A stretch of 13,756 bases of DNA from a bacterium (lineage in GTDB: Bacteria > JAJRZV01): NCBI GenBank assembly GCA_024275095.1, contig JAJRZV010000095.1:1-13756 (forward strand). The letters are read 5' to 3'. Within the stretch, counting starts at the first letter, position 1; each line of letters begins with the position of its first letter. The translations under genes and the position numbers were made by a program. Below are positions 2,367-13,756 of this stretch, one piece after another. Below the pieces are notes generated by a model, which saw only the letters and a list, made by a program, of their open reading frames with translations, was not told the origin of the DNA and ran no database searches.

Positions 2367-2738
2367 TTGGCATATCTTGCTGTGGGAGTTGCGGTTTTTG
2401 CAATCACAGCCATCGGTTTTGTGCTGATTTCCATTATTATTAATCACCTGTTGGCACCGCGACGCGTTACTCCCCTGAAAGTAGAACCTTATGAATGTGG
2501 AGAAAAAGTCGTTGGTGATGCACGGATACGGTTTGATATGCGTTTTTACATAATAGCTCTGGCATTTATTATTTTTGAAGCAGAAGTCGTCTTCTTTTTC
2601 CCATGGGCAGTGGTACTCAAAAGACTGCGATATCTTGCATTTTTTGACATGCTTGTTTTTCTCATCATTCTCGTTGTGGGGCTTTACTATATCTGGAAAC
2701 GCGGTGACCTCAAGTGGGTAAAAACCCCTGTGAGGTAG
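2367..2738 (+). CDS. nuoA: Complex I subunit NuoA (first set)
   Basis: NuoA is a small inner-membrane subunit with three helices that holds the loop near the quinone site and helps join the peripheral and membrane arms. Seen, about 123 aa: helix 1 right at the N-terminus; LLAPRR and then PYECG, the hallmark of the TM1-2 loop; MRFYIIALAFIIFEAEV followed by FFFPWAV in helix 2; and a third helix before a basic tail. The usual FDxE of helix 2 reads FEAE here, with Glu replacing the common Asp. I prefer the TTG at 2367 because of its ribosome-binding site, the promoter position and length agreement with the second NuoA (122 aa). An ATG at 2337 would add 10 residues. nuoB follows after 3 nt. Identity is certain; the start is not. 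Confidence 0.93.
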   Translation: MAYLAVGVAVFAITAIGFVLISIIINHLLAPRRVTPLKVEPYECGEKVVGDARIRFDMRFYIIALAFIIFEAEVVFFFPWAVVLKRLRYLAFFDMLVFLIILVVGLYYIWKRGDLKWVKTPVR

Positions 2739-2741
2739 AAA

Positions 2742-3224
2742 ATGGGTGTTCTTGATAACAGGCTGCCGGATAATGTGTTTTTTGCAATGGCGGATGATTT
2801 TGTTAACTGGTCACGCAAAAACTCTCTCTGGTATCTCCTTTTTGCCACTGCATGTTGTGGCATAGAACTCATGCACACGGGAGGTCCGCGGTTTGATCTG
2901 GACCGGTTCGGCTCGGTATTTCGAGCATCGCCGCGACAATCGGATTTGATGATTGTCGCAGGTACGATTACGTATAAAATGGCAGACCCGGTACGCCGTC
3001 TTTACGAGCAAATGCCTGAACCCAAGTGGGTTATTTCCATGGGTTCCTGTGCGAACTCAGGGTGTCCGTTTAATCCTCACACGTACTCAGTGGTCAAAGG
3101 TGTGGACCGGATTATACCCGTTGATGTTTACATTCCCGGTTGCCCTCCACCTCCTGAAGCGCTGATAGAAGGCATTATGAAACTTCAGAGAAAAATCGAA
3201 GCATCCAAGGTCTTCAGGAAATAG
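2742..3224 (+). CDS. nuoB: Complex I subunit NuoB (first set), N2 [4Fe-4S] cluster protein
   Basis: NuoB carries cluster N2, the last Fe-S centre, which passes electrons to quinone bound between NuoB and NuoD. Seen, 160 aa: the tandem cysteines of TACCGIE (Cys38, Cys39), Cys103 in MGSCANSG, and Cys134 in [10 protein letters not shown], so all four N2 ligands are present. The signatures [17 protein letters not shown] and MPEPKWV are intact. An extra cysteine (Cys108) and one additional residue follow Cys103, in [13 protein letters not shown], where the second NuoB has [10 protein letters not shown]. Length is normal for the family. The ATG at 2742 has TGAGG about 6 nt upstream, and nuoA ends 3 nt before it. 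The stop is directly followed by nuoC. Confidence 0.97.
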
Positions 3225-3233
3225 GTGAAACAC

Positions 3234-3704
3234 ATGAAGGACCTGAACACATTGGTACAGGATTTGCAAGCCGCTGTTGAAGGTGCGATAGAAGAGGTTG
3301 TCACAGAAAACACACAACCACCTTATATTATTGTGAAAAAAGAAAAAATTGTTCCTGTGCTTGAGTACCTGAAAAAAGAAGGTTTCAATCATCTTTCCGC
3401 TGTTTCTGCAGTGGATGAGCCGCCTGAAAAGATATGGGTGGTTTATCATCTTGTAGCAATAGGAGAGAAATCAACCCTCGCTGTTAAAACCGTTCTGCCC
3501 CGCGATGCTGCTGAGGTTGATTCGGTGGGCAATGTGTATCCAACGGCACTGTGGCACGAGCGCGAGGCCTATGACCTGATGGGAGTGAAATTTAAAGGTC
3601 ATCCTGATTTGAGGCGCATACTCATGCCCGATGACTGGGTTGGACATCCCCTTCGGAAAGATTACGAACAGATAAAAGAGTACCACGGGATTAAGACGGA
3701 CTGA
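3234..3704 (+). CDS. nuoC: Complex I subunit NuoC (first set), 30-kDa-type
   Basis: NuoC is a soluble subunit of the peripheral arm that packs against NuoD and NuoI. Seen, 156 aa from the ATG at 3234: an alpha/beta N-terminal part and then the family signature, WHEREAYDLMGVKFKGHPDL followed by RRILMPDDW and GHPLRKDY near the C-terminus. It is a separate gene, not fused to nuoD as in E. coli. A GTG at 3225, directly after the nuoB stop, is in frame and would add three residues. I prefer the ATG because AGGTGA lies 5 nt before it, but either start is plausible. nuoD follows one base after the stop. Confidence 0.95.
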   Translation: MKDLNTLVQDLQAAVEGAIEEVVTENTQPPYIIVKKEKIVPVLEYLKKEGFNHLSAVSAVDEPPEKIWVVYHLVAIGEKSTLAVKTVLPRDAAEVDSVGNVYPTALWHEREAYDLMGVKFKGHPDLRRILMPDDWVGHPLRKDYEQIKEYHGIKTD

Positions 3705-3705
3705 G

Positions 3706-4818
3706 ATGCTGGAGACGCAGGAACTTGTAATAAACATGGGACCTCAGCACCCTTCGACCCACGGGGTGCTGAGATTGTTGCTTCATACAGACGGAGAAAT
3801 TATTGTAGAAGCCCAGCCTCATGTTGGTTATCTCCATCGCGGAATAGAAAAAATCGCCGAAAAGGTGAATTACCACCAGTTTATGCCCTATACCGACCGC
3901 ATTGATTACCTTGCATCCATGAACTGCAATCACGCTTATGCCTGTGCTGTTGAGCGTCTCATGGGCATTGAGGTTCCGGAGAGAGCCCAGTTTATCCGGG
4001 TGATTATGAGCGAACTCAACCGCATCGCATCGCATCTTGTGTTTTTTGGCAGCTTCGGAATGGACGTGGGAGCATTTACGCCCTTTTTGTACGGTCTTCG
4101 GGAAAGAGAAAGGACCTTAGACCTGTTTGAAGCAGCATGTGGTCAGCGGCTTACCTACAACTACATGAAAATTGGCGGTGTTCGCTGGGACCTTCCTCCG
4201 GGATGGACAGACAAGTGTCGGGAATTTTGCGATTATTTTGAGCCCAAAATTCAGGAATATCACGACTTGCTCACGTATAACTACATTTTTATGAAGCGTC
4301 TTGGAAACATTGGTGTGCTTACACCGGAAGACGCGCTTGCCTACGGTGTTACAGGTCCCAACCTCCGGGCCAGTGGGGTGGCTTACGATATCAGAAAGGA
4401 AGAACCTTACGATGTATACGACCGTCTGGAATTTGATATTCCAGTGGGCACTGGTGAAGCGGGGGCTGTGGGAGATTGTTTTGACCGTTATATGGTTCGT
4501 ATCAAAGAGATGCAGCAGAGCGTAAGAATCATTCGTCAGTGTCTGGACATGATGCCGGAAGGCGATGTTCAGGCACGGGTGCCCCGGGTGCTCAAAATTC
4601 CGCCCAAGGAGATCTATTTCCGCGCAGAAAATCCTCGTGGTGAGCTCGGGTTTTACATTGTCGCCAACGGCAAACCATCTCCAGAGCGGCTTAAAATTCG
4701 GGGTGCCAGCTTTTCCAACATCCATGTGATGGAGAAAATACTCCCGGGCCTCATGGTGGCAGACGCGGTGGCCGTGATAGCAAGTCTTGATGTAATTCTG
4801 CCGGAATGTGACAGGTAA
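3706..4818 (+). CDS. nuoD: Complex I subunit NuoD (first set), 49-kDa-type quinone-site subunit
   Basis: NuoD is homologous to the large subunit of [NiFe] hydrogenases without the metal site, and with NuoB it forms the quinone-binding cavity. Seen, 370 aa: MGPQHPSTHGVLRL (residues 11-24) forming the loop that contributes the quinone-site histidine; HVGYLHRGIEK (39-49); YTDRIDYLASM (62-72) with the conserved Asp-Tyr; NRIASHLVFFG; and the C-terminal ending ILPECDR in place of the commoner GEVDR-type tail. Length fits stand-alone NuoD. The ATG is one base after the nuoC stop. It is followed by a 48-nt gap and then nuoH: the nuoE, nuoF and nuoG genes normally found here in 14-gene operons are missing. 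Confidence 0.97.
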   Translation: MLETQELVINMGPQHPSTHGVLRLLLHTDGEIIVEAQPHVGYLHRGIEKIAEKVNYHQFMPYTDRIDYLASMNCNHAYACAVERLMGIEVPERAQFIRVIMSELNRIASHLVFFGSFGMDVGAFTPFLYGLRERERTLDLFEAACGQRLTYNYMKIGGVRWDLPPGWTDKCREFCDYFEPKIQEYHDLLTYNYIFMKRLGNIGVLTPEDALAYGVTGPNLRASGVAYDIRKEEPYDVYDRLEFDIPVGTGEAGAVGDCFDRYMVRIKEMQQSVRIIRQCLDMMPEGDVQARVPRVLKIPPKEIYFRAENPRGELGFYIVANGKPSPERLKIRGASFSNIHVMEKILPGLMVADAVAVIASLDVILPECDR

Positions 4819-4866: not shown

Positions 4867-5958
4867 ATGGATCAGCTGACGAAATTATTTTACAGTCTGG
4901 GCCTTTCTCCTTATTACGGGATTTTTGTGGCTGCATTCTTGCTGGCGGTCATTATCCTTGCCTTTGCCCTTCTTTACGAGGGTGTGGCCACGTATGTGGA
5001 AAGAAAAGTGGCGGGTGATATTCAGTCGCGTATTGGTCCGAACAGGGTGGGTCCTTACGGAACGCTGCAGTGGCTTGCTGATGGTGTTAAGTTGTTTCTC
5101 AAGGAAGATTTTATTCCCGCCCAGGCGGATAAACTCATATTTCGAATTGCTCCTTATTTCGTATTTGTCGGTTCTTTTTTACCATTTGCAGCCCTGCCGC
5201 TGTGGGACAGATTTGTACCGGTGCCCATGAATATAGGGCTTCTTTACATCATAGCCGTTACTGCCATGGTGACACCGGGTATCGTGCTTGCAGGTTGGGG
5301 TTCCAACAACAAATGGGCATTGCTGGGCGGCATGCGGTCTGCGGCACAATTGATCAGTTATGAAGTACCCAATGCCGTTGCTTTGCTTATTCCCGTGCTT
5401 ATTGCAGGCACACTTAATCTCGATGAAATTGTGCGTGCCCAGGGCGGTGGTGGAGGAATACTGCGCTGGTTCATCTTTCACGATCCTTTTTCTTTTATGG
5501 CGTTTTTCATCTTTTTTACAGCCGGCCTGGCGGAGTGCAATCGCACCCCCTTTGACCTCCCTGAAGCCGAATCTGAACTCGTTGCCGGGTACTCGGTGGA
5601 ATATTCAGCCATTCGGTACGCCTTTTTTTACATGGGCGAGTATGGTGACATGTTCATTATTTCAGCCATGGCTTCTGCCGCGTTTCTTGGCGGATGGCAG
5701 CTTCCTCTTATTGATCCTCTCGTAAAGATTGGCTGGTTAAAAGCAGTTCTTCAGCTGGGTATCTTTTTGACCAAGACGCTGTTGCTTGTACTTGTAATGA
5801 TGTGGATACGCTGGACCTTTCCGCGTCTCCGTGTGGACCAGCTCATGGAACTTTCGTGGAAAAGATTGCTTCCCATAGCACTTTTTCTGCTCATGGGTGC
5901 AGCCTTGTGGACGGTGGTGTTTCACGGAAAAGGAATCTACGACCTCATAGTGGGGTAA
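4867..5958 (+). CDS. nuoH: Complex I subunit NuoH (ND1-type) at the quinone channel
   Basis: NuoH is the membrane subunit that forms the entry of the quinone channel and links it to the proton-transfer path. Seen, 363 aa with about eight to nine membrane helices: VERKVAGDIQSRIGPNRVGP (44-63) and the following ADGVKLFLKED; SYEVPNA (164-170); and AECNRTPFDLPEAESELVAG (222-241) running on into YSVEYS, the acidic loop conserved across the family. It is somewhat longer than the E. coli protein (325 aa). A five-glycine run (193-197) sits in a loop before the next helix. The ATG has AAGGGA about 7 nt upstream and cannot be extended, because an in-frame TAA lies at 4852. nuoI begins 3 nt after the stop. 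Confidence 0.97.
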   Translation: MDQLTKLFYSLGLSPYYGIFVAAFLLAVIILAFALLYEGVATYVERKVAGDIQSRIGPNRVGPYGTLQWLADGVKLFLKEDFIPAQADKLIFRIAPYFVFVGSFLPFAALPLWDRFVPVPMNIGLLYIIAVTAMVTPGIVLAGWGSNNKWALLGGMRSAAQLISYEVPNAVALLIPVLIAGTLNLDEIVRAQGGGGGILRWFIFHDPFSFMAFFIFFTAGLAECNRTPFDLPEAESELVAGYSVEYSAIRYAFFYMGEYGDMFIISAMASAAFLGGWQLPLIDPLVKIGWLKAVLQLGIFLTKTLLLVLVMMWIRWTFPRLRVDQLMELSWKRLLPIALFLLMGAALWTVVFHGKGIYDLIVG

Positions 5959-5961
5959 AAA

Positions 5962-6498
5962 GTGGGAGTGATTAAGGAAATTATTGATGTGGCGAAGTCT
6001 CTGGGTAAAGGCCTGAAGGTTACTGTGAAGTATTGGTTCAGTCCCTCTTCCACCATTACCGTGCAGTATCCCGAAGAAAAGAGAGCCCTTTCCGAGCGTA
6101 CCAGAGGTATTCTTTTCAATGATGTGGTGAAATGCACTGCCTGTTCAGCCTGTGTGCTTGCGTGCCCCGTAAAATGCATTTCTCTGGTGCCGGTTGGAAA
6201 GGGGAAAGCACGGAAGCCCAAATCCTTCGTCATCACCATCAGCCAGTGCATGTTTTGCGGGTTGTGTGTGGATGCCTGTCCGACGAAGAGCCTGCAGCAC
6301 ACTCAGGAGTTAACCATGGCCCGGTATGGACTGGAGGATTTACAGATTGAATACGTCACCCCTGAGATGGCGGAACGTTTTGTACGTGAAGCTGAAGAGT
6401 ATGAAAGAACTCAGGCAGAGAAAGCGAAGAAGGAAGCGGAGAAGTCCGCACGGAAACCTGAAGAGAAGGGTGAAGGAGATCAGGGAGGCTCTCAGTGA
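5962..6498 (+). CDS. nuoI: Complex I subunit NuoI, two [4Fe-4S] ferredoxin-like protein with charged tail
   Basis: NuoI holds clusters N6a and N6b, which relay electrons to N2 in NuoB. In complexes lacking NuoEFG it lies near the likely docking site of the electron donor. Seen, 178 aa: an amphipathic N-terminus; CTACSACVLACP with Cys58, 61, 64 and 68; an insertion rich in Lys, Gly and Pro; and CMFCGLCVDACP with Cys96, 99, 102 and 106, giving two complete CxxCxxCxxxCP motifs. From about residue 133 the protein has a very charged Glu/Lys-rich tail, probably helical and then disordered, ending GGSQ. The start is GTG at 5962, with a second in-frame GTG at 5968 also possible. The stop overlaps the nuoJ start by 4 nt (GTGA). 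Confidence 0.96.
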   Translation: MGVIKEIIDVAKSLGKGLKVTVKYWFSPSSTITVQYPEEKRALSERTRGILFNDVVKCTACSACVLACPVKCISLVPVGKGKARKPKSFVITISQCMFCGLCVDACPTKSLQHTQELTMARYGLEDLQIEYVTPEMAERFVREAEEYERTQAEKAKKEAEKSARKPEEKGEGDQGGSQ

Positions 6499-7004
6499 AG
6501 GGGAACCCCGCCATTATTGTTTTCTGGTTGTGTGCCATGCTCACGTTGCTTTTTGCTGTGTGTGTGATTGTGGCACGTGACCTCGTGAGAGCAGTGACGG
6601 CCTTGCTTTTTGCTTTGCTCATGACAGCGGGCATGTATTTCGCTCTGGGTGCGGATTTTCTGGGCGCGGTGCAGATTGTCCTTTACGTGGGTGGAGTGGT
6701 TGTACTGGTGCTGTTCGGAGTGATGCTTACAAGGGATGTAGAAATGACAGTTCCTTACCTGGGATTTGGACAGTTTTTGCCTGCACTTATTGTCGCTGGT
6801 GCTGTGACATGGGGGTTGTGGCATCTGGCAGACTTCCTCCCCCGAAAAGCTTTTCCACCTGTACATCGCAGTGTCACCCCCATTCTTGGAGAGTTGTTTA
6901 TGAAGAAGTACATCGTCGCATTTGAGGTTGCTTCTGTTCTTCTGGTGGGAGTGCTTATTGGAGCTGCATATCTTGTGAGACGCGAAGTGAGGCGGGAAGA
7001 ATGA
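6495..7004 (+). CDS. nuoJ: Complex I subunit NuoJ (ND6-type)
   Basis: NuoJ is a five-helix membrane subunit whose third helix undergoes a conformational change during coupling. Seen, 169 aa: five hydrophobic segments; ADFLGAVQIVLYVGGVVVLV (53-72), containing the Q-x3-Y-VGG pi-bulge motif of helix 3; FGVML after it; and an acidic residue in FEVASVLL (Glu144) in the last helix, before an Arg/Glu-rich end. The start is GTG at 6495, overlapping the nuoI stop, with GGAGG at 6484-6488 as a good ribosome-binding site. The stop overlaps the nuoK start as ATGA. Confidence 0.95.
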   Translation: MKGNPAIIVFWLCAMLTLLFAVCVIVARDLVRAVTALLFALLMTAGMYFALGADFLGAVQIVLYVGGVVVLVLFGVMLTRDVEMTVPYLGFGQFLPALIVAGAVTWGLWHLADFLPRKAFPPVHRSVTPILGELFMKKYIVAFEVASVLLVGVLIGAAYLVRREVRREE

Positions 7005-7309
7005 TTCTTTACACGTATCACATATTCCGTGTTTCAGCAGTGCTTTTTGGATTGGGTGTTTTTGGAATGCGGGTCAGGCGAAATGCCATCAGCATGCTTC
7101 TTTCTCTGGAACTCATGATTAATGCTGCAGCTCTTAATCTCGTGGCAGCCGCTGCGTTTACGGGCACATACATCAGTGGTTTCAGCATGGCTGTTTTTGT
7201 CATCGTTATCGCGGCGGCGGAGGCGGCTGTCGCTCTGGCAATATTTATTGCTCTGTTTAAATCTCGCAGGTCCATTGATGTGGACGAAGCAGCGGAGATG
7301 AAGGGATGA
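7001..7309 (+). CDS. nuoK: Complex I subunit NuoK (ND4L-type)
   Basis: NuoK is a small three-helix subunit related to MrpC of cation antiporters and forms part of the proton path beside NuoJ. Seen, 102 aa: SLELMINAAALNL with Glu37, and AAAEAAVALAIF with Glu74, the two buried glutamates essential for pumping in studied complexes. Length is typical (about 100 aa). ATG at 7001 overlaps the nuoJ stop by 4 nt, and the nuoL ATG overlaps the nuoK stop by 4 nt, so translation of J, K and L is probably coupled. Confidence 0.96.
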   Translation: MILYTYHIFRVSAVLFGLGVFGMRVRRNAISMLLSLELMINAAALNLVAAAAFTGTYISGFSMAVFVIVIAAAEAAVALAIFIALFKSRRSIDVDEAAEMKG

Positions 7310-9288
7310 GCGAACACTCACTTCAAACACTGCTGGTCATTATTCCTCTTCTTCCCATGGCGGGATTTATCATCAATCGTTTCTTTGGTCGGCGTTTGGG
7401 AGAGCGTGCTGTGTCTCTGATTGGTCCTGGAGTGGTTGGGCTGGCATTCCTGCTCTCTGTAATAGTTATTGTCAGCCTTTCACTTTCAGGTGAAGAGCGC
7501 CTGGTCGCCTATGTTCTTCCCTGGATGCACGTTGGGCAATTCCAGGTGGATTTTGCGTACGTGCTTGATCACCTTTCCGCAGTAATGCTTCTGGTTGTTA
7601 CCGGTGTTGGTTTTCTCATTCACGTGTATTCCATCGGCTATATGCACGGCGACAAGAGTTATCACGTGTATTTTTCGTACCTTAACCTTTTCGTCTTTAT
7701 GATGCTTACTCTTGTAATGGCCGAGAATGTTTTGCTCATGTTTCTCGGATGGGAAGGAGTGGGACTCTGTTCGTATCTTCTTATCGGGTTCTGGTTCGAG
7801 GAGTGGGAAAGAGCCCGCGCCGGTATGAAGGCGTTTGTCGTCAACCGGGTGGGCGATTTTGGCTTTTTGCTGGGGATCCTTCTGCTGTTCTGGACTTCCT
7901 GGGAGCTGGGACATCCCACCCTCAGTTTTCACTCGCTGGAAGAGATTGTTACCCGGATGTCACCACCGGTGATAACGATTATTTGCCTCCTTTTGTTTGT
8001 TGGGGCCACAGGCAAATCCGCCCAGATTCCTCTTTACGTGTGGCTTCCTGATGCCATGGCCGGTCCAACACCTGTGAGTGCTCTTATTCACGCGGCTACC
8101 ATGGTAACGGCCGGTGTGTACATGGTGGCGCGGCTCAACTTCATGTATTCTCTTTCTCCCACCGCCTCCCTTGTTGTTGCTGCTGTGGGTGCGCTCACCG
8201 CCTTTTACGCAGGGACGATGGGAGTGGTGGCCACCGGGATCAAGAAGGTACTTGCGTATTCCACAATTTCTCAACTTGGCTACATGTTTCTGGGTGTGGG
8301 CGTGGGTGCATACGTGGACGGAATGTTTCACCTCACGACCCACGCTTTTTTCAAAGCCCTTCTCTTTTTAGGAGCCGGCAGTGTGATGCACGCCATGGCC
8401 GACGAAGAAGACATCATGAAAATGGGAGGCTTGCGCAAGTACATTCCGTATACGTACTGGGTGTTTCTCTTCGGTGCTCTTGCTCTCGCTGGAGTGCCTC
8501 CATTTGCAGGATTTTTCTCCAAGGATGAGATTCTTCTCAAGACATTTGCACAGGGCCATTATGTGCTTTATGCCATTGGACTTGCAGGAGCATTTGTCAC
8601 TGCTTTTTACACATTCCGACTCGTGTTTTTGACTTTCCACGGTGAGGAAAGATTTGACCATCACAAAGTTCATCCTCACGAATCACCGTGGGTGATGATT
8701 GTACCCATGATGATACTGGCAGTTCTTTCTCTGATAGGAGGGGCGGTGCTGGGCTTTCCTCATCACAGTTTAATGGAAGGGTATCTTGAGGAACTGTTCC
8801 GTTACGAGGTTCATGCTGAAGGAGCACCCGCTGGTTTGCTCATGCTCGTGTCCACAGTGGTTGCTCTCTCCGGCATTGGGCTTGCAGGATATGTGTATCT
8901 TCTGAGACCTGAGTTGCCGTCACGGATTGCCGAACGGTTCAAGGGACTCTATAGCCTCCTGTGGAATAAATACTGGGTGGATGAAATCTATCAGGCACTG
9001 TTTGTCAACGGTGCTCTGGGGCTGGCCCGTTCTTTAGCACGTTTTGACCTCGGCGTTGTTGATTTCCTCGTCAATTTCTCCGCACGCTTTACCGTTCTTG
9101 TCTCCCGGTTCAGCGGCTGGTTTGATCTTAAAGGTGTGGATGGAGCTGTGAATGCGATAGCGAGTGCAACAGAAGGCGCGGGGGATGGGGTTCGTCGTGT
9201 TCAAACAGGGGTGCTGCAGAATTATCTCTTGATATTCATACTCGGTGTAGCCTGTATTGTGGCTTATAAAATTTTCTTTGGAGGGTAA
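7306..9288 (+). CDS. nuoL: Complex I subunit NuoL (ND5-type antiporter-like proton channel)
   Basis: NuoL is the distal Mrp-antiporter-like pump subunit, with a long lateral helix that runs along the membrane arm. Seen, 660 aa: MFLGWEGVGLCSYLLIGFW with key Glu150; GATGKSAQIPLYVWLPDAMA with Lys237; GPTPVSALIHAATMVTAGVY; KKVLAYSTISQLGYMF; and GVPPFAGFFSKDEIL with Lys406. These match the Glu/Lys proton-path residues of the family. After about residue 480 come the sequence for the amphipathic lateral helix and a final hydrophobic segment (about 641-658). Length is slightly above that of E. coli NuoL (613 aa). The start overlaps nuoK and nuoM starts 6 nt downstream. Confidence 0.97.
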   Translation: MSEHSLQTLLVIIPLLPMAGFIINRFFGRRLGERAVSLIGPGVVGLAFLLSVIVIVSLSLSGEERLVAYVLPWMHVGQFQVDFAYVLDHLSAVMLLVVTGVGFLIHVYSIGYMHGDKSYHVYFSYLNLFVFMMLTLVMAENVLLMFLGWEGVGLCSYLLIGFWFEEWERARAGMKAFVVNRVGDFGFLLGILLLFWTSWELGHPTLSFHSLEEIVTRMSPPVITIICLLLFVGATGKSAQIPLYVWLPDAMAGPTPVSALIHAATMVTAGVYMVARLNFMYSLSPTASLVVAAVGALTAFYAGTMGVVATGIKKVLAYSTISQLGYMFLGVGVGAYVDGMFHLTTHAFFKALLFLGAGSVMHAMADEEDIMKMGGLRKYIPYTYWVFLFGALALAGVPPFAGFFSKDEILLKTFAQGHYVLYAIGLAGAFVTAFYTFRLVFLTFHGEERFDHHKVHPHESPWVMIVPMMILAVLSLIGGAVLGFPHHSLMEGYLEELFRYEVHAEGAPAGLLMLVSTVVALSGIGLAGYVYLLRPELPSRIAERFKGLYSLLWNKYWVDEIYQALFVNGALGLARSLARFDLGVVDFLVNFSARFTVLVSRFSGWFDLKGVDGAVNAIASATEGAGDGVRRVQTGVLQNYLLIFILGVACIVAYKIFFGG

Positions 9289-9294
9289 GGAATC

Positions 9295-10767
9295 ATGGGT
9301 TCTCACCTTCTTTCATGGATGACATTTTTGCCGCTTGCAGGAGCGGTACTCGTATTGCTGGTGCCGCGTTCTCGCAAGGAATTGATGAAGTGGGTTGCAT
9401 TAATATCCACTTTACCCTCACTGGGCATATCTGTTTATCTACTCACTCAGTTCAACTTTTCTTCAAGCAGTTTTCAGTTTGTGGAGAAAGGTCTCTGGAT
9501 CCCTGCTTTTAACATTCATTACTACATGGGGGTGGATGGCCTTTCCATGCCCATGGTGTTCCTTACCACCCTTCTTGTCACCATCTGCATTATAGCATCG
9601 TGGAGAATCGATACGGGACTGAAGGGGTATCTGGCCCTTTTCCTCATGCTGGAAACAGGGATGCTGGGGGTGTTTGAGGCGCTGGATTTCTTTCTCTTCT
9701 ACGTTTTCTGGGAAGTAGGACTCTTCCCCATGTACTTTATTATCGGAATATGGGGAGGGCCTCGAAAAGAGTATGCAGCCATCAAGTTCTTTCTCTATAC
9801 ACTGTTTGGCAGCGTGTTCATGCTCTTGAGCATGCTCTACATGTACTTTACAACCAATCCTCATACATTTGACCTCACTGTACTCATGCAGTCCGCTGCA
9901 GGATATCCGCTTCGTATTCAGATGATCCTTTTCGCTGCATTTTATATTGCGTTTTCCATCAAGGTGCCCGTGTTCCCCTTCCATACATGGTTGCCTGATG
10001 CTCACGTGGAAGCTCCTACCGCCGGTAGCGTTATTCTTGCAGGGATTCTTCTGAAAATGGGCACTTATGGATTGCTTCGTTTTAATTATCAGCTTCTTCC
10101 AGATGCCACCCGTGCCGCTGCTTACTTTCTCGCCGTGATGGGGACCATCAATATTGTATATGGTGCACTTGTCGCCATGGCTCAAACAGATTTCAAAAAA
10201 CTGGTGGCTTACTCCTCTATTTCTCACATGGGCTATGTATTGCTGGGGATTGCGTCTCTAACGGACCAGGGAATTATCGGCGGTACCATGCAGATGTTCA
10301 ATCACGGTGTGATCACAGCCATGCTCTTTTTGATTGTAGGTGTGATTTACGACAGGGTACATCATCGCGACCTCAACCGCTTTGGAGGCCTCGCTTCGGC
10401 AATGCCATTGTATGCAGGTATTACGAGCATTGCCTTTTTCGCGGGAATGGGTTTACCCGGGCTCAACGGATTTATTTCTGAAGCGCTCACGTTTCTCGGT
10501 GCGTTTAAGATTTACAAGATCCTCACAATTATTTCTGCAACAGGGGTGGTGCTGACAGCAGGTTACATGCTCTGGACAATGGAACGGGTGTTTCTTGGAC
10601 CCCTCAACGAAGCGTACAAGGGGATTAAAGAGATCAGCGCTCGAGAGATGCTGTGCCTGGTACCGCTGGCTGTTATCGTGGTGTTCCTGGGAATATACCC
10701 AACTCCGCTAATAGACTTAATGAAAGCGACGCTTATTGCTATCAAAGGAGGCGTACTGGGGTTCTGA
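9295..10767 (+). CDS. nuoM: Complex I subunit NuoM (ND4-type antiporter-like proton channel)
   Basis: NuoM is the middle antiporter-like pump subunit. Seen, 490 aa with about 14 helices: YMGVDGLSMP (77-86) typical of NuoM; FWEVGLFPMYFIIGIWGG with key Glu140; SIKVPVFPFHTWLPDAHVEA with Lys223; SVILAGILLKMGTYGLLR with Lys254; KKLVAYSSISHMG; and GLPGLNGFISEAL with Glu396, the acidic residue that in NuoM replaces the lysine of NuoL and NuoN. Length is usual. ATG at 9295 is served by GGAGG at 9280-9284. nuoN starts one base after the stop. Confidence 0.97.
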   Translation: MGSHLLSWMTFLPLAGAVLVLLVPRSRKELMKWVALISTLPSLGISVYLLTQFNFSSSSFQFVEKGLWIPAFNIHYYMGVDGLSMPMVFLTTLLVTICIIASWRIDTGLKGYLALFLMLETGMLGVFEALDFFLFYVFWEVGLFPMYFIIGIWGGPRKEYAAIKFFLYTLFGSVFMLLSMLYMYFTTNPHTFDLTVLMQSAAGYPLRIQMILFAAFYIAFSIKVPVFPFHTWLPDAHVEAPTAGSVILAGILLKMGTYGLLRFNYQLLPDATRAAAYFLAVMGTINIVYGALVAMAQTDFKKLVAYSSISHMGYVLLGIASLTDQGIIGGTMQMFNHGVITAMLFLIVGVIYDRVHHRDLNRFGGLASAMPLYAGITSIAFFAGMGLPGLNGFISEALTFLGAFKIYKILTIISATGVVLTAGYMLWTMERVFLGPLNEAYKGIKEISAREMLCLVPLAVIVVFLGIYPTPLIDLMKATLIAIKGGVLGF

Positions 10768-10768
10768 G

Positions 10769-12238
10769 ATGACGATACTGTCCCAGATTCGATTTTTAAT
10801 CCCAGAGATTATTGTCAGTGCAGGTGCGCTTACCGCGCTGGTGGCTAATGCGCTGTTGGAGAGCAAAGAACGAATACAAACTCCCTATGTGGTTCTTGTG
10901 TCCTTTGCTACAGCCCTGTTAACGCTTGTCATTCTCGCAGCAGATGCCCCACAAAAACTGTTATGGGGCACCTATATGTTTGATGCTTATGCAGTATATT
11001 TCAAAGGATTTTTCCTGGTGCTCGGAACAGTAATTGCTCTTCTGGCAGTGCACACGCCTTCCATTAGCTCTTTGCAGTCAGGAGGAGAATTCGCTTCGTT
11101 ACTGGGTTTTTCCATTGTTGGAGCCATGGTTGCCGCCTCAGCAGGAGATTTCATTACCATGGTTGTGGCTGTCGAGACGGTGAGTATGCTGGGGTATGTG
11201 CTCGCCGGGTTTACGCGTACACGCCTCTCCAGAGAGGCTGCGGTCAAATACGTGCTTTACGGAGCATTTTCAACAGCCATATCCCTTTTTGGTATCAGCA
11301 TGATTTTCTGGGCTACCGGGCAGCTTGAATTCAAGCAGCTTTCAGCCGTGGTTCAGATAAGTCCGTACAAACAGTTCGTATTTGCGGGATTGATAATCTT
11401 TTTGACAGGACTCTTCTTCAAGGCAGCGGCTGTACCATTTCACATGTGGTCTCCTGACGTGTATCAGGGTTCTCCCACACTGGTTACAGCCTACTTTTCA
11501 GTAGGGCCGAAAGCGGCGGCTTTTGCTGTAATCGGGAGGGTCTTGCTGGACGGCTTTGCAAGACGTACGATGTCCGTTGACTGGATTGTTCCACCGGGTA
11601 TTGATTGGCCCATCGTGATCGCGGTGATTTCCGCTCTTACCATGACGGTTGGCAATCTTTCCGCTCTTTTGCAAAAAGACCTCAAACGCATGCTTGCTTA
11701 CTCTTCAATTGCACATGCAGGATACATGCTCGCAGGTTTTGCCGCCAAAAACGTAATTGGTACCTCCGGTGTACTTTACTACCTGGGTGCGTATTTGCTC
11801 ATGAACCTGGGCGCTTTCTTTGTTGTGCTCGCTGTTGAGGAGACGGGAAAGGGTACTCATCTCGACTCTATCCGCGGTCTTGGCTGGACCAGCCCTCTTG
11901 CCGGAGCCACGATGGCGATATTTCTTCTCTCTCTCACAGGGATTCCACCCTTTGCAGGGTTTGTGGGAAAACTCGTAGTTTTCGGTGCTGTTGTGAAAAG
12001 CAAGCTTTACTGGCTGGCCGTGCTGGGGGTGCTCAATAGTGTGATTTCTCTCGGGTATTACGGACTTATGCTCAAGAAAATATACCTGGAGCGCAGCGAT
12101 GAGCAGGTCATACTTCCGCGAGTGTATTCACCTGTTCTTGTGGCTCTGGCAGCCTTGACGGTTTTCCTTGGAATTTGTTTCAACCCGTTGATAGAATACA
12201 CCGCCCACGGGGCAAAGTTATTGGGGGTGCTTTTTTGA
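10769..12238 (+). CDS. nuoN: Complex I subunit NuoN (ND2-type antiporter-like proton channel)
   Basis: NuoN is the antiporter-like subunit closest to NuoK. Seen, 489 aa: VAVETVSMLGYVLAGF with Glu136; GLFFKAAAVPFHMWSPDVYQ with Lys218; SVGPKAAAFAV with Lys248; KRMLAYSSIAHAGYML; and TGIPPFAGFVGKLVVF with Lys401. These correspond to the proton-channel residues known from E. coli NuoN. I chose the ATG at 10769 over an in-frame TTG at 10736, because the latter would overlap nuoM by 32 nt and add a hydrophilic extension not usual in the family. The TGA at 12236-12238 shares its last base with the ATG of the second nuoA (TGATG), so the two complex I sets are directly joined. Confidence 0.96.
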   Translation: MTILSQIRFLIPEIIVSAGALTALVANALLESKERIQTPYVVLVSFATALLTLVILAADAPQKLLWGTYMFDAYAVYFKGFFLVLGTVIALLAVHTPSISSLQSGGEFASLLGFSIVGAMVAASAGDFITMVVAVETVSMLGYVLAGFTRTRLSREAAVKYVLYGAFSTAISLFGISMIFWATGQLEFKQLSAVVQISPYKQFVFAGLIIFLTGLFFKAAAVPFHMWSPDVYQGSPTLVTAYFSVGPKAAAFAVIGRVLLDGFARRTMSVDWIVPPGIDWPIVIAVISALTMTVGNLSALLQKDLKRMLAYSSIAHAGYMLAGFAAKNVIGTSGVLYYLGAYLLMNLGAFFVVLAVEETGKGTHLDSIRGLGWTSPLAGATMAIFLLSLTGIPPFAGFVGKLVVFGAVVKSKLYWLAVLGVLNSVISLGYYGLMLKKIYLERSDEQVILPRVYSPVLVALAALTVFLGICFNPLIEYTAHGAKLLGVLF

Positions 12239-12606
12239 TGGGAAGTATTCCCCTTGATTTTCTGAGACTTGCTTTCTGGATTCTTGTTGTTCTTGCCATT
12301 ACAGCAGGAATGCTTGTTTTAACTCACCTGTTGGGTCCGCGCAGGCCTGACCCGACAAAAAGTTCTCCGTATGAGTGTGGTTTTCCGCCTTTTCACGATG
12401 CAAGAAAGCGCCTGTCCGTACGCTTTTACACGATTGCCATGATTTTTCTCATCTTCGATGTGGAAGTGGCGCTCATTTATCCCTGGGCGGTTGTTCACAG
12501 GGACATGGGCACCCTGGGATTTGTGGAAATATTGATTTTTCTTGTAATTTTGTTTGCCGGCTATATTTATGTAATCTTGCGGCGGGCTGTTGAGGTTGAA
12601 CGGTGA
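12238..12606 (+). CDS. nuoA: Second complex I subunit NuoA
   Basis: A second NuoA, 122 aa, clearly distinct from the one at 2367. Seen: helix 1; [20 protein letters not shown], the loop signature; [17 protein letters not shown] with the usual FDVE acidic pair; IYPWAV; and a third helix ending in [11 protein letters not shown] at 12238 is the last base of the nuoN stop plus two more, with GGGGG at 12223-12227 as a possible ribosome-binding site about 10 nt upstream. This suggests translation by termination-reinitiation from nuoN. The stop overlaps the next gene by 4 nt (GTGA). A longer reading frame from 12175 exists but would invade nuoN and is not preferred. Confidence 0.96.
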
Positions 12607-13082
12607 GCGAAGGTTTCTTTATCAGCAAACTGGAATGGCTTATAGGGTGGGGGCGTAAGTATTCCCTGTGGCCTCTTCCTTTTGGTACTGCATGTTGCGC
12701 CATTGAGTTCATGTCATCCGTGTCCTCTCATTACGACATTTCGCGTTTTGGCGCAGAGGTGGTGCGTTTTTCACCCCGCCAGGCGGACCTGATGATTGTT
12801 GCAGGAACCATTACTTACAAGCAGGTGCCTGTGCTCAAGCGAATTTACGCTCAGATGCCCGAACCCAAATGGGTAATCGTTATGGGAAATTGTGCCTGTT
12901 CCGGCGGAATTTTCGACACCTATTCCACCCACCAGGGAGTGGACATGGAAATCCCTGTGGATGTGTACGTGACAGGATGTCCTCCGAGACCAGAGGCCTT
13001 AATTGACGCCATCGTAAAAGTTCAAGAAATGGCTCAAAGAGGCGAGTGGCATGGATCGAGAAAGCGCCAAAAAGCTGGTTGA
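12603..13082 (+). CDS. nuoB: Second complex I subunit NuoB, N2 [4Fe-4S] cluster protein
   Basis: A second NuoB, 159 aa, with all four N2 ligands: Cys31 and Cys32 in GTACCAIEF, Cys97 in [10 protein letters not shown] and Cys126 in [11 protein letters not shown]. Cys99 is an additional cysteine beside the third ligand. [17 protein letters not shown] and MPEPKWVI are conserved with the first NuoB, while the N-terminus, the segment after the CC pair and the loop after Cys97 differ, indicating an old divergence and not a recent duplication. GTG at 12603 has GAGG about 7 nt upstream and overlaps the preceding stop. Its basic C-terminal tail ([11 protein letters not shown]) is encoded in the region shared with the next gene. 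Confidence 0.96.
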
Positions 13083-13563
13083 AGAAGTAGCAGGAGAAGC
13101 CTTAGAGGGCTTCCTTGAGACAGGAGACGTACTCGCGGATGCTTTTGTCTCCAGGGATAAAATTGTTGATGTGCTTTTGACCTTGCGGGAAGAAAAAGGA
13201 TTCAAAATGCTTGTAGACCTGTTCGGGGTGGACCGTCGCCCCGATGAAGAACGGTTGGAGGTTGTTTATCTGCTGCTAAATCTCAAGGAAAAGGCTCGCA
13301 TTCGAATTCGCGTAAAGGTTCCTTTCGACGATCCGGTTGTCCCGTCTCTCACTCCTCGCTGGAAGGGTGCCGACTGGTTCGAGCGTGAAGCATACGACAT
13401 GTTCGGCATCGTATTTAAGGGTCATCCTGATCTTCGTCGTCTCCTCATGTGGGAGGGATTCGACGGGCATCCGCTGAGGAAGGATTTTCCGCTCAAGGGA
13501 AAATTGCTCCCTGACCAGCGTTACAGTAGAAATGACCCGCGCAGACACGGATGGGAGGCATAG
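13051..13563 (+). CDS. nuoC: Second complex I subunit NuoC, 30-kDa-type
   Basis: A second NuoC, 170 aa, again separate from nuoD. Seen: an N-terminal alpha/beta region ([20 protein letters not shown]), then the signature [20 protein letters not shown] with RRLLMWEGF and [12 protein letters not shown] following. It carries a longer C-terminal extension (about 20 residues after GHPLRKDF) than the first NuoC. The ATG at 13051 lies 32 nt inside nuoB and has AGAGG 8 nt upstream; no later ATG looks better placed. Such an overlap is larger than the 1-4 nt joints elsewhere in the operon. nuoD follows after 5 nt. Confidence 0.95.
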
Positions 13564-13568
13564 CAAGC

Positions 13569-13756
13569 ATGCAGTTCTGGGAAAAGGATGAAGATGGACG
13601 GATGATCATTAACGTTGGGCCGTCTCATCCGGCCATGCACGGGACACTCCGTGTGATTGTAGAACTGGATGGAGAGGTCATCCTTCGTGCAGACCCGGAA
13701 ATCGGGTATCTGCACAGGGGGGTGGAAAAACTGGCGGAACATCTCAACTATCAGGC
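13569..13756 (+). CDS. nuoD: Second complex I subunit NuoD, N-terminal part (runs off window)
   Basis: The first 62 codons of a second NuoD, cut by the window end and not by a stop. Seen: [20 protein letters not shown] (14-33), the quinone-site loop, with Ser and Ala-Met where the first NuoD has GPQHPSTHG; and [18 protein letters not shown] (45-62). ATG at 13569 has GGGAGG about 10 nt upstream. The signature differs enough from the first copy to mark a separate NuoD lineage. What follows outside the window (nuoE, F, G or not) would show whether this set encodes a full NADH-linked complex I. Confidence 0.94.

Follow-up and report, generated by a model that had tools for sequence, protein, structure and literature searches.

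The 13,756-nt window analyzed here, which is the whole of contig C62 in a draft bacterial genome (2.45 Mb, 136 contigs), carries a complete 11-subunit complex I gene set, nuoABCDHIJKLMN (set 1), followed directly on the same strand by the first genes of a canonical 14-subunit set (set 2). The stop codon of nuoN1 and the start codon of nuoA2 share one base. We consider it probable that the two sets form one cluster with a single promoter and coupled translation, from which two pumps are made together. The pairing in one locus of a complex I free of reduced nicotinamide adenine dinucleotide (NADH) and an NADH-linked one is found, in either order, in several lineages of bacteria, and the overlapping joint offers a simple test of whether both enzymes are made in step. 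Were this so, 11-subunit enzymes would complement NADH-linked complex I and not replace it, and this would bear on the unsettled question of their electron donor.

Products of set 1 and of nuoA2-B2-C2 were assigned to families with NCBIfam scans. As the preliminary description had it, the set before the joint is complete: all 11 products were identified (NuoA, B, C, D, H, I, J, K, L, M and N), and nuoE, nuoF and nuoG are absent, which is the gene content of an 11-subunit complex I. The three complete genes after the junction encode NuoA, NuoB and NuoC. The 3' end of the window falls within nuoD2. Its final 302 bp recur, with 2 mismatches, on contig C41 (14186 bp, reverse strand), which probably reflects differences between strains that interrupted the assembly near nuoD2. 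C41 carries the rest of set 2 (nuoD2-E-F-G-H-I-J-K-L-M-N), giving a complete nuoA-N series that includes NuoE, NuoF and NuoG with their 2Fe-2S, flavin mononucleotide (FMN) and 4Fe-4S domains. The whole locus thus comprises an 11-subunit set and then a 14-subunit set, 25 nuo genes on one strand, and nuoA and nuoD each occur twice in the genome as a whole. Cluster and quinone motifs are intact in NuoB, NuoI and NuoD of both sets, and motifs are likewise intact in NuoE, NuoF and NuoG of set 2. A hydrogenase or Mrp-type complex was ruled out by the family scans and the NuoD motifs: NuoD1 has GPQHPSTHG and NYM without the paired CxxC of NiFe hydrogenases, and NuoD equivalog models score far above hydrogenase models for it. 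The highly charged, Lys/Glu-rich tail of NuoI1 is missing from NuoI2; a soluble donor might dock there.

The cluster is very tightly packed. Only one of its 24 gaps exceeds 10 nt (D1-H1, 48 nt) and, given the starts used, 13 of the 24 junctions overlap. A divergent minus-strand gene (168-2249) bounds it at the 5' side; at the 3' side, a PAS/GAF histidine kinase gene in convergent orientation lies 28 nt beyond nuoN2. For a same-strand cluster with so few gaps, transcription as one unit is the simplest interpretation and a plausible one. At the joint, positions 12230-12240 read CTTTTTTGATG, and the final A of the nuoN1 TGA is indeed the first base of the nuoA2 ATG, as first noticed. The string TGATG alone is frequent (54 occurrences in about 27 kb), and it is noteworthy here for joining two intact frames, not as a motif. 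Since about half of the junctions overlap, such a tight joint is ordinary packing for this cluster.

The two sets share 29-54% identity in ten of their common subunits, with NuoL at 61%, which agrees with the initial view of two divergent complex I sets lying in one almost gapless cluster. In phylogenetic trees, several branches of which are weakly supported, NuoD1, NuoM1 and NuoH1 group with 11-subunit sets from other phyla, and their set 2 counterparts (NuoD2, NuoM2 and NuoH2) with 14-subunit sets from other phyla. The identities and these groupings together rule out a recent local duplication and indicate that the two sets diverged anciently.

A comparable pair has been published. In bacterium SHF-111 of candidate phylum MBNT15, a nuoABCDEFGHIJKLMN cluster and a nuoABCDHIJKLMN cluster "follow each other" with 31-60% identity; the pair was interpreted as not being a recent duplication, and the short set was given a non-NADH donor (PMC9386147). 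The window locus is likewise a tandem of 11- and 14-subunit sets that lie side by side on the same strand and diverged long ago. It differs in order (14 then 11 as listed for MBNT15, 11 then 14 here) and in the stop/start overlap, none being described for MBNT15 (PMC9386147). A published 11-subunit enzyme, described as standing alone in its genome, has the nuoABCDHIJKLMN order without nuoEFG, as does set 1, which is however directly followed by the 14-subunit set. Two complex I per cell are also known from Caldithrix abyssi (PMC5317091) and Rhodobacter sphaeroides (PMC4859585), but there the pairs lie at two separate loci or operons. The arrangement described here is therefore a tighter, reversed-order variant of an already published pairing, uncommon but not new.

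We evaluated how often such pairs occur in other genomes. In a diverse sample of 290 genomes, 168 carry nuoA and 75, besides the one studied here, carry two or more copies; two nuoA lie adjacent on one strand in at least 4 of these 75. Two of these genomes show the 11-then-14 order, with 71 nt (G256) or about 1.7 kb (G209) between the sets, and two members of one family (G130 and G255) show 14-then-11 with about 150 nt. A search with NuoN1 against 84,980 genomes gave 80 loci, with identities of 43% or less throughout. Eight of the 80, all titled Neomarinimicrobiota or Marinimicrobia, share the 11-then-14 order; their order, strand and gene content agree with the window as far as the sequence covers, whereas their sets are separated by about 40-1400 nt and their proteins have diverged from those of the window (e.g., about 55% identity for NuoD1 and about 40% for NuoN1). 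Marinimicrobia are reported to carry both complex I types (PMC6143742); no mention of their adjacency was found in that paper. The expectation that two complex I sets usually sit at separate loci fits the small number of adjacent pairs, although adjacency recurs across lineages and had been published for MBNT15. The tandem sets in the other genomes examined all have spacers (about 40-1700 nt), and none overlap. The one-base overlap is thus the sole unusual feature of the locus and the tightest case between two full sets among the loci compared. The recurrence of the pairing in several lineages and both orders suggests selection for making both enzymes together.

The source genome itself is distant from those sampled: its ribosomal protein L2 shares no more than 65% identity with that of the 12 named genomes searched, the sampled relatives share only the rank of domain with it, and no 16S gene was found in the draft. 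Two 2-oxoacid:ferredoxin oxidoreductase-type matches were detected in the genome, while neither Rnf/Nqr subunits nor heme-copper or bd oxidases were detected at its 97% completeness. This gene content suggests an anaerobic host with two entry points, where set 2 would oxidize NADH, and set 1 ferredoxin or some other donor of low potential. For 11-subunit enzymes elsewhere, ferredoxin or other non-NADH donors have been proposed (PMC11238625, PMC5317091), and their electron donor is considered an open question (PMC11238625).

In the scenario that we favor, a promoter ahead of nuoA1 would most likely drive all 25 genes. Ribosomes ending nuoN1 at UGA would restart on the nuoA2 AUG that overlaps it, and in doing so would open a hairpin that otherwise masks the nuoA2 ribosome site. 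The outcome would be joint production of two separate proton pumps, both reducing the same quinone pool; NADH would supply electrons to the second, and a donor other than NADH, most likely ferredoxin, to the first. The single transcript, the translational coupling and the donor of set 1 are deduced here from sequence. The predicted hairpin at the nuoA2 start (dG -17.8 kcal/mol, z score -3.66 in a 46-nt frame) holds the Shine-Dalgarno-like, G-rich GGGGGTG inside its stem and is the most stable among the 25 start-site folds of the cluster. It could be consistent with coupling by the terminating ribosome, or with attenuation.

Several observations weigh against in-step production. In a 91-nt frame, the z score of the hairpin is just -1.06, and equally stable folds occur in 33 of 2274 cluster windows (1.5%), so that one of 25 starts would have such a fold by chance in about one third of cases. 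A promoter-like match lies near the joint and a terminator-like match at it (Table 1), the spacers of the other tandem loci are big enough for promoters, and the junction is known from one contig of one draft genome. The earlier statement that no terminator or promoter space separates the sets consequently holds for spacer length but not strictly, as consensus matches stand at or just before the joint. Together with the hairpin, these matches may leave room for separate regulation. Adjacent sets without tight co-expression are a serious alternative, albeit a rather unlikely one: the hairpin might partly terminate transcription or serve for RNA processing, or an internal promoter at the end of nuoN1 might drive set 2, so that each enzyme would be made at a level of its own. 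This alternative would draw on the terminator-like stem and on the promoter-like match with its TG, and on the spacers kept in all other tandem loci examined. Such matches are not clearly in excess in the window, with 20 promoter-like sites versus 13.8 +/- 3.6 and 18 terminator-like sites versus 16.4 +/- 4.3 in shuffled sequence; the stem has 4 G-C pairs by scan and no clean T run, and the one-base overlap favors coupled translation.

NuoL is the exception to the divergence of the two sets. NuoL1 and NuoL2 are sisters (support 100/99) and nearest relatives among the genomes sampled, and an approximately unbiased (AU) test rejects the grouping of NuoL1 with other 11-subunit NuoLs (p 2e-4), which points to nuoL having been copied between the sets long ago. 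As a control, in eight genomes with two separate complex I sets, NuoL ranked first or second among the subunits in similarity, and within-genome NuoL pairing was seen in other two-complex genomes (G020, G039, G043 and G209). Homogenization of NuoL through tandem placement was dropped as an explanation, because similar pairing or high identity is found where the sets lie apart; the pairing reflects a wider pattern and not a consequence of the fusion. The closeness of the two NuoLs could also speak for mixed or shared enzymes, with NuoEFG of set 2 docking on the set 1 core too or subunits such as NuoL being exchanged. We find this improbable, as each set has a full core of its own, NuoH, NuoI and NuoJ are just 29-44% identical between the sets, and high NuoL similarity also occurs where a genome has its two sets at distant loci. 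It is quite improbable that the fusion fixes the enzyme ratio for sharing parts (one NuoEFG or a swappable NuoL) as a switch between ferredoxin and NADH entry. Finally, an assembly or binning chimera that joined two separate nuo operons at nuoN1/nuoA2 is highly improbable: the draft is fragmented, the mismatches between C62 and C41 hint at strain mixture, and the NuoN1 search gave no second genome of the lineage confirming the joint, but both frames run intact through the one-base overlap, GC and third-position GC (GC3) are level across it, and the 11-then-14 order is also present in several unrelated assemblies.

Table 1. Features of the nuo locus (window positions unless locus L006, on contig C41, is named) and related loci.
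Feature	Position	Strand	Remark
nuoA1	2367..2738	+	TTG start at 2367, AGAGGGGG upstream; alternative ATG at 2337; start picked by eye
nuoB1	2742..3224	+	cluster N2 cysteines kept
nuoC1	3225..3704	+	NCBIfam
nuoD1	3706..4818	+	quinone-site GPQHPSTHG and NYM motifs
nuoH1	4867..5958	+	NCBIfam
nuoI1	5962..6498	+	two 4Fe-4S motifs; charged Lys/Glu-rich C-terminal tail
nuoJ1	6495..7004	+	NCBIfam
nuoK1	7001..7309	+	NCBIfam
nuoL1	7306..9288	+	tree sister is nuoL2 of the same genome
nuoM1	9295..10767	+	NCBIfam
nuoN1	10769..12238	+	NCBIfam
Promoter-like match	12168..12197	+	TTGGAA-18-TAGAAT inside nuoN1; TG before second hexamer; 9/12; may be chance
Predicted RNA hairpin	12215..12260	+	centered on nuoA2 start; loop UGAU
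Terminator-like stem	12223-12252		same stem as hairpin; broken T run
TGATG joint	12236..12240	+	nuoN1 stop 12236-12238, nuoA2 ATG 12238-12240; one base common
nuoA2	12238..12606	+	opening gene of 14-subunit set; NCBIfam
nuoB2	12603..13082	+	NCBIfam
nuoC2	13051..13563	+	NCBIfam
nuoD2 start	13569..13756	+	truncated by contig end; continues on C41 (L006, reverse strand)
C62/C41 overlap	13455-13756		equals L006 13885-14186; 302 bp, 2 mismatches
nuoL2	L006 5506-7413
Neomarinimicrobiota 11-then-14 loci			L042, L048, L055, L062, L076, L088, L089, L102

The product of the divergent gene upstream of the cluster (693 aa) has a melibiase match only, below threshold, and is perhaps a distant alpha-galactosidase-type hydrolase. 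Two further genomes showed related arrangements. In G091 (L157/L158), nuoLM overlaps nuoA by 4 nt, followed by nuoA-C-D-E-F-H-J-K-N and then a second J-K-L-M-N, which suggests a composite cluster with one peripheral arm and extra membrane-arm genes. In G030 (L156), K-L-M-N of one set precede nuoA-C-D-H-J-K-L-M of an 11-type set, probably a further 14-then-11 tandem cut by the contig start. In the 14-subunit sets of Neomarinimicrobiota, the product of the gene after nuoK is about 30% identical to either NuoL (L042 from 20275, L102 from 17440, L089 from 20396) and forms a very long branch in those cases that the tree covers; a truncated fragment or another kind of antiporter-like subunit may be involved.
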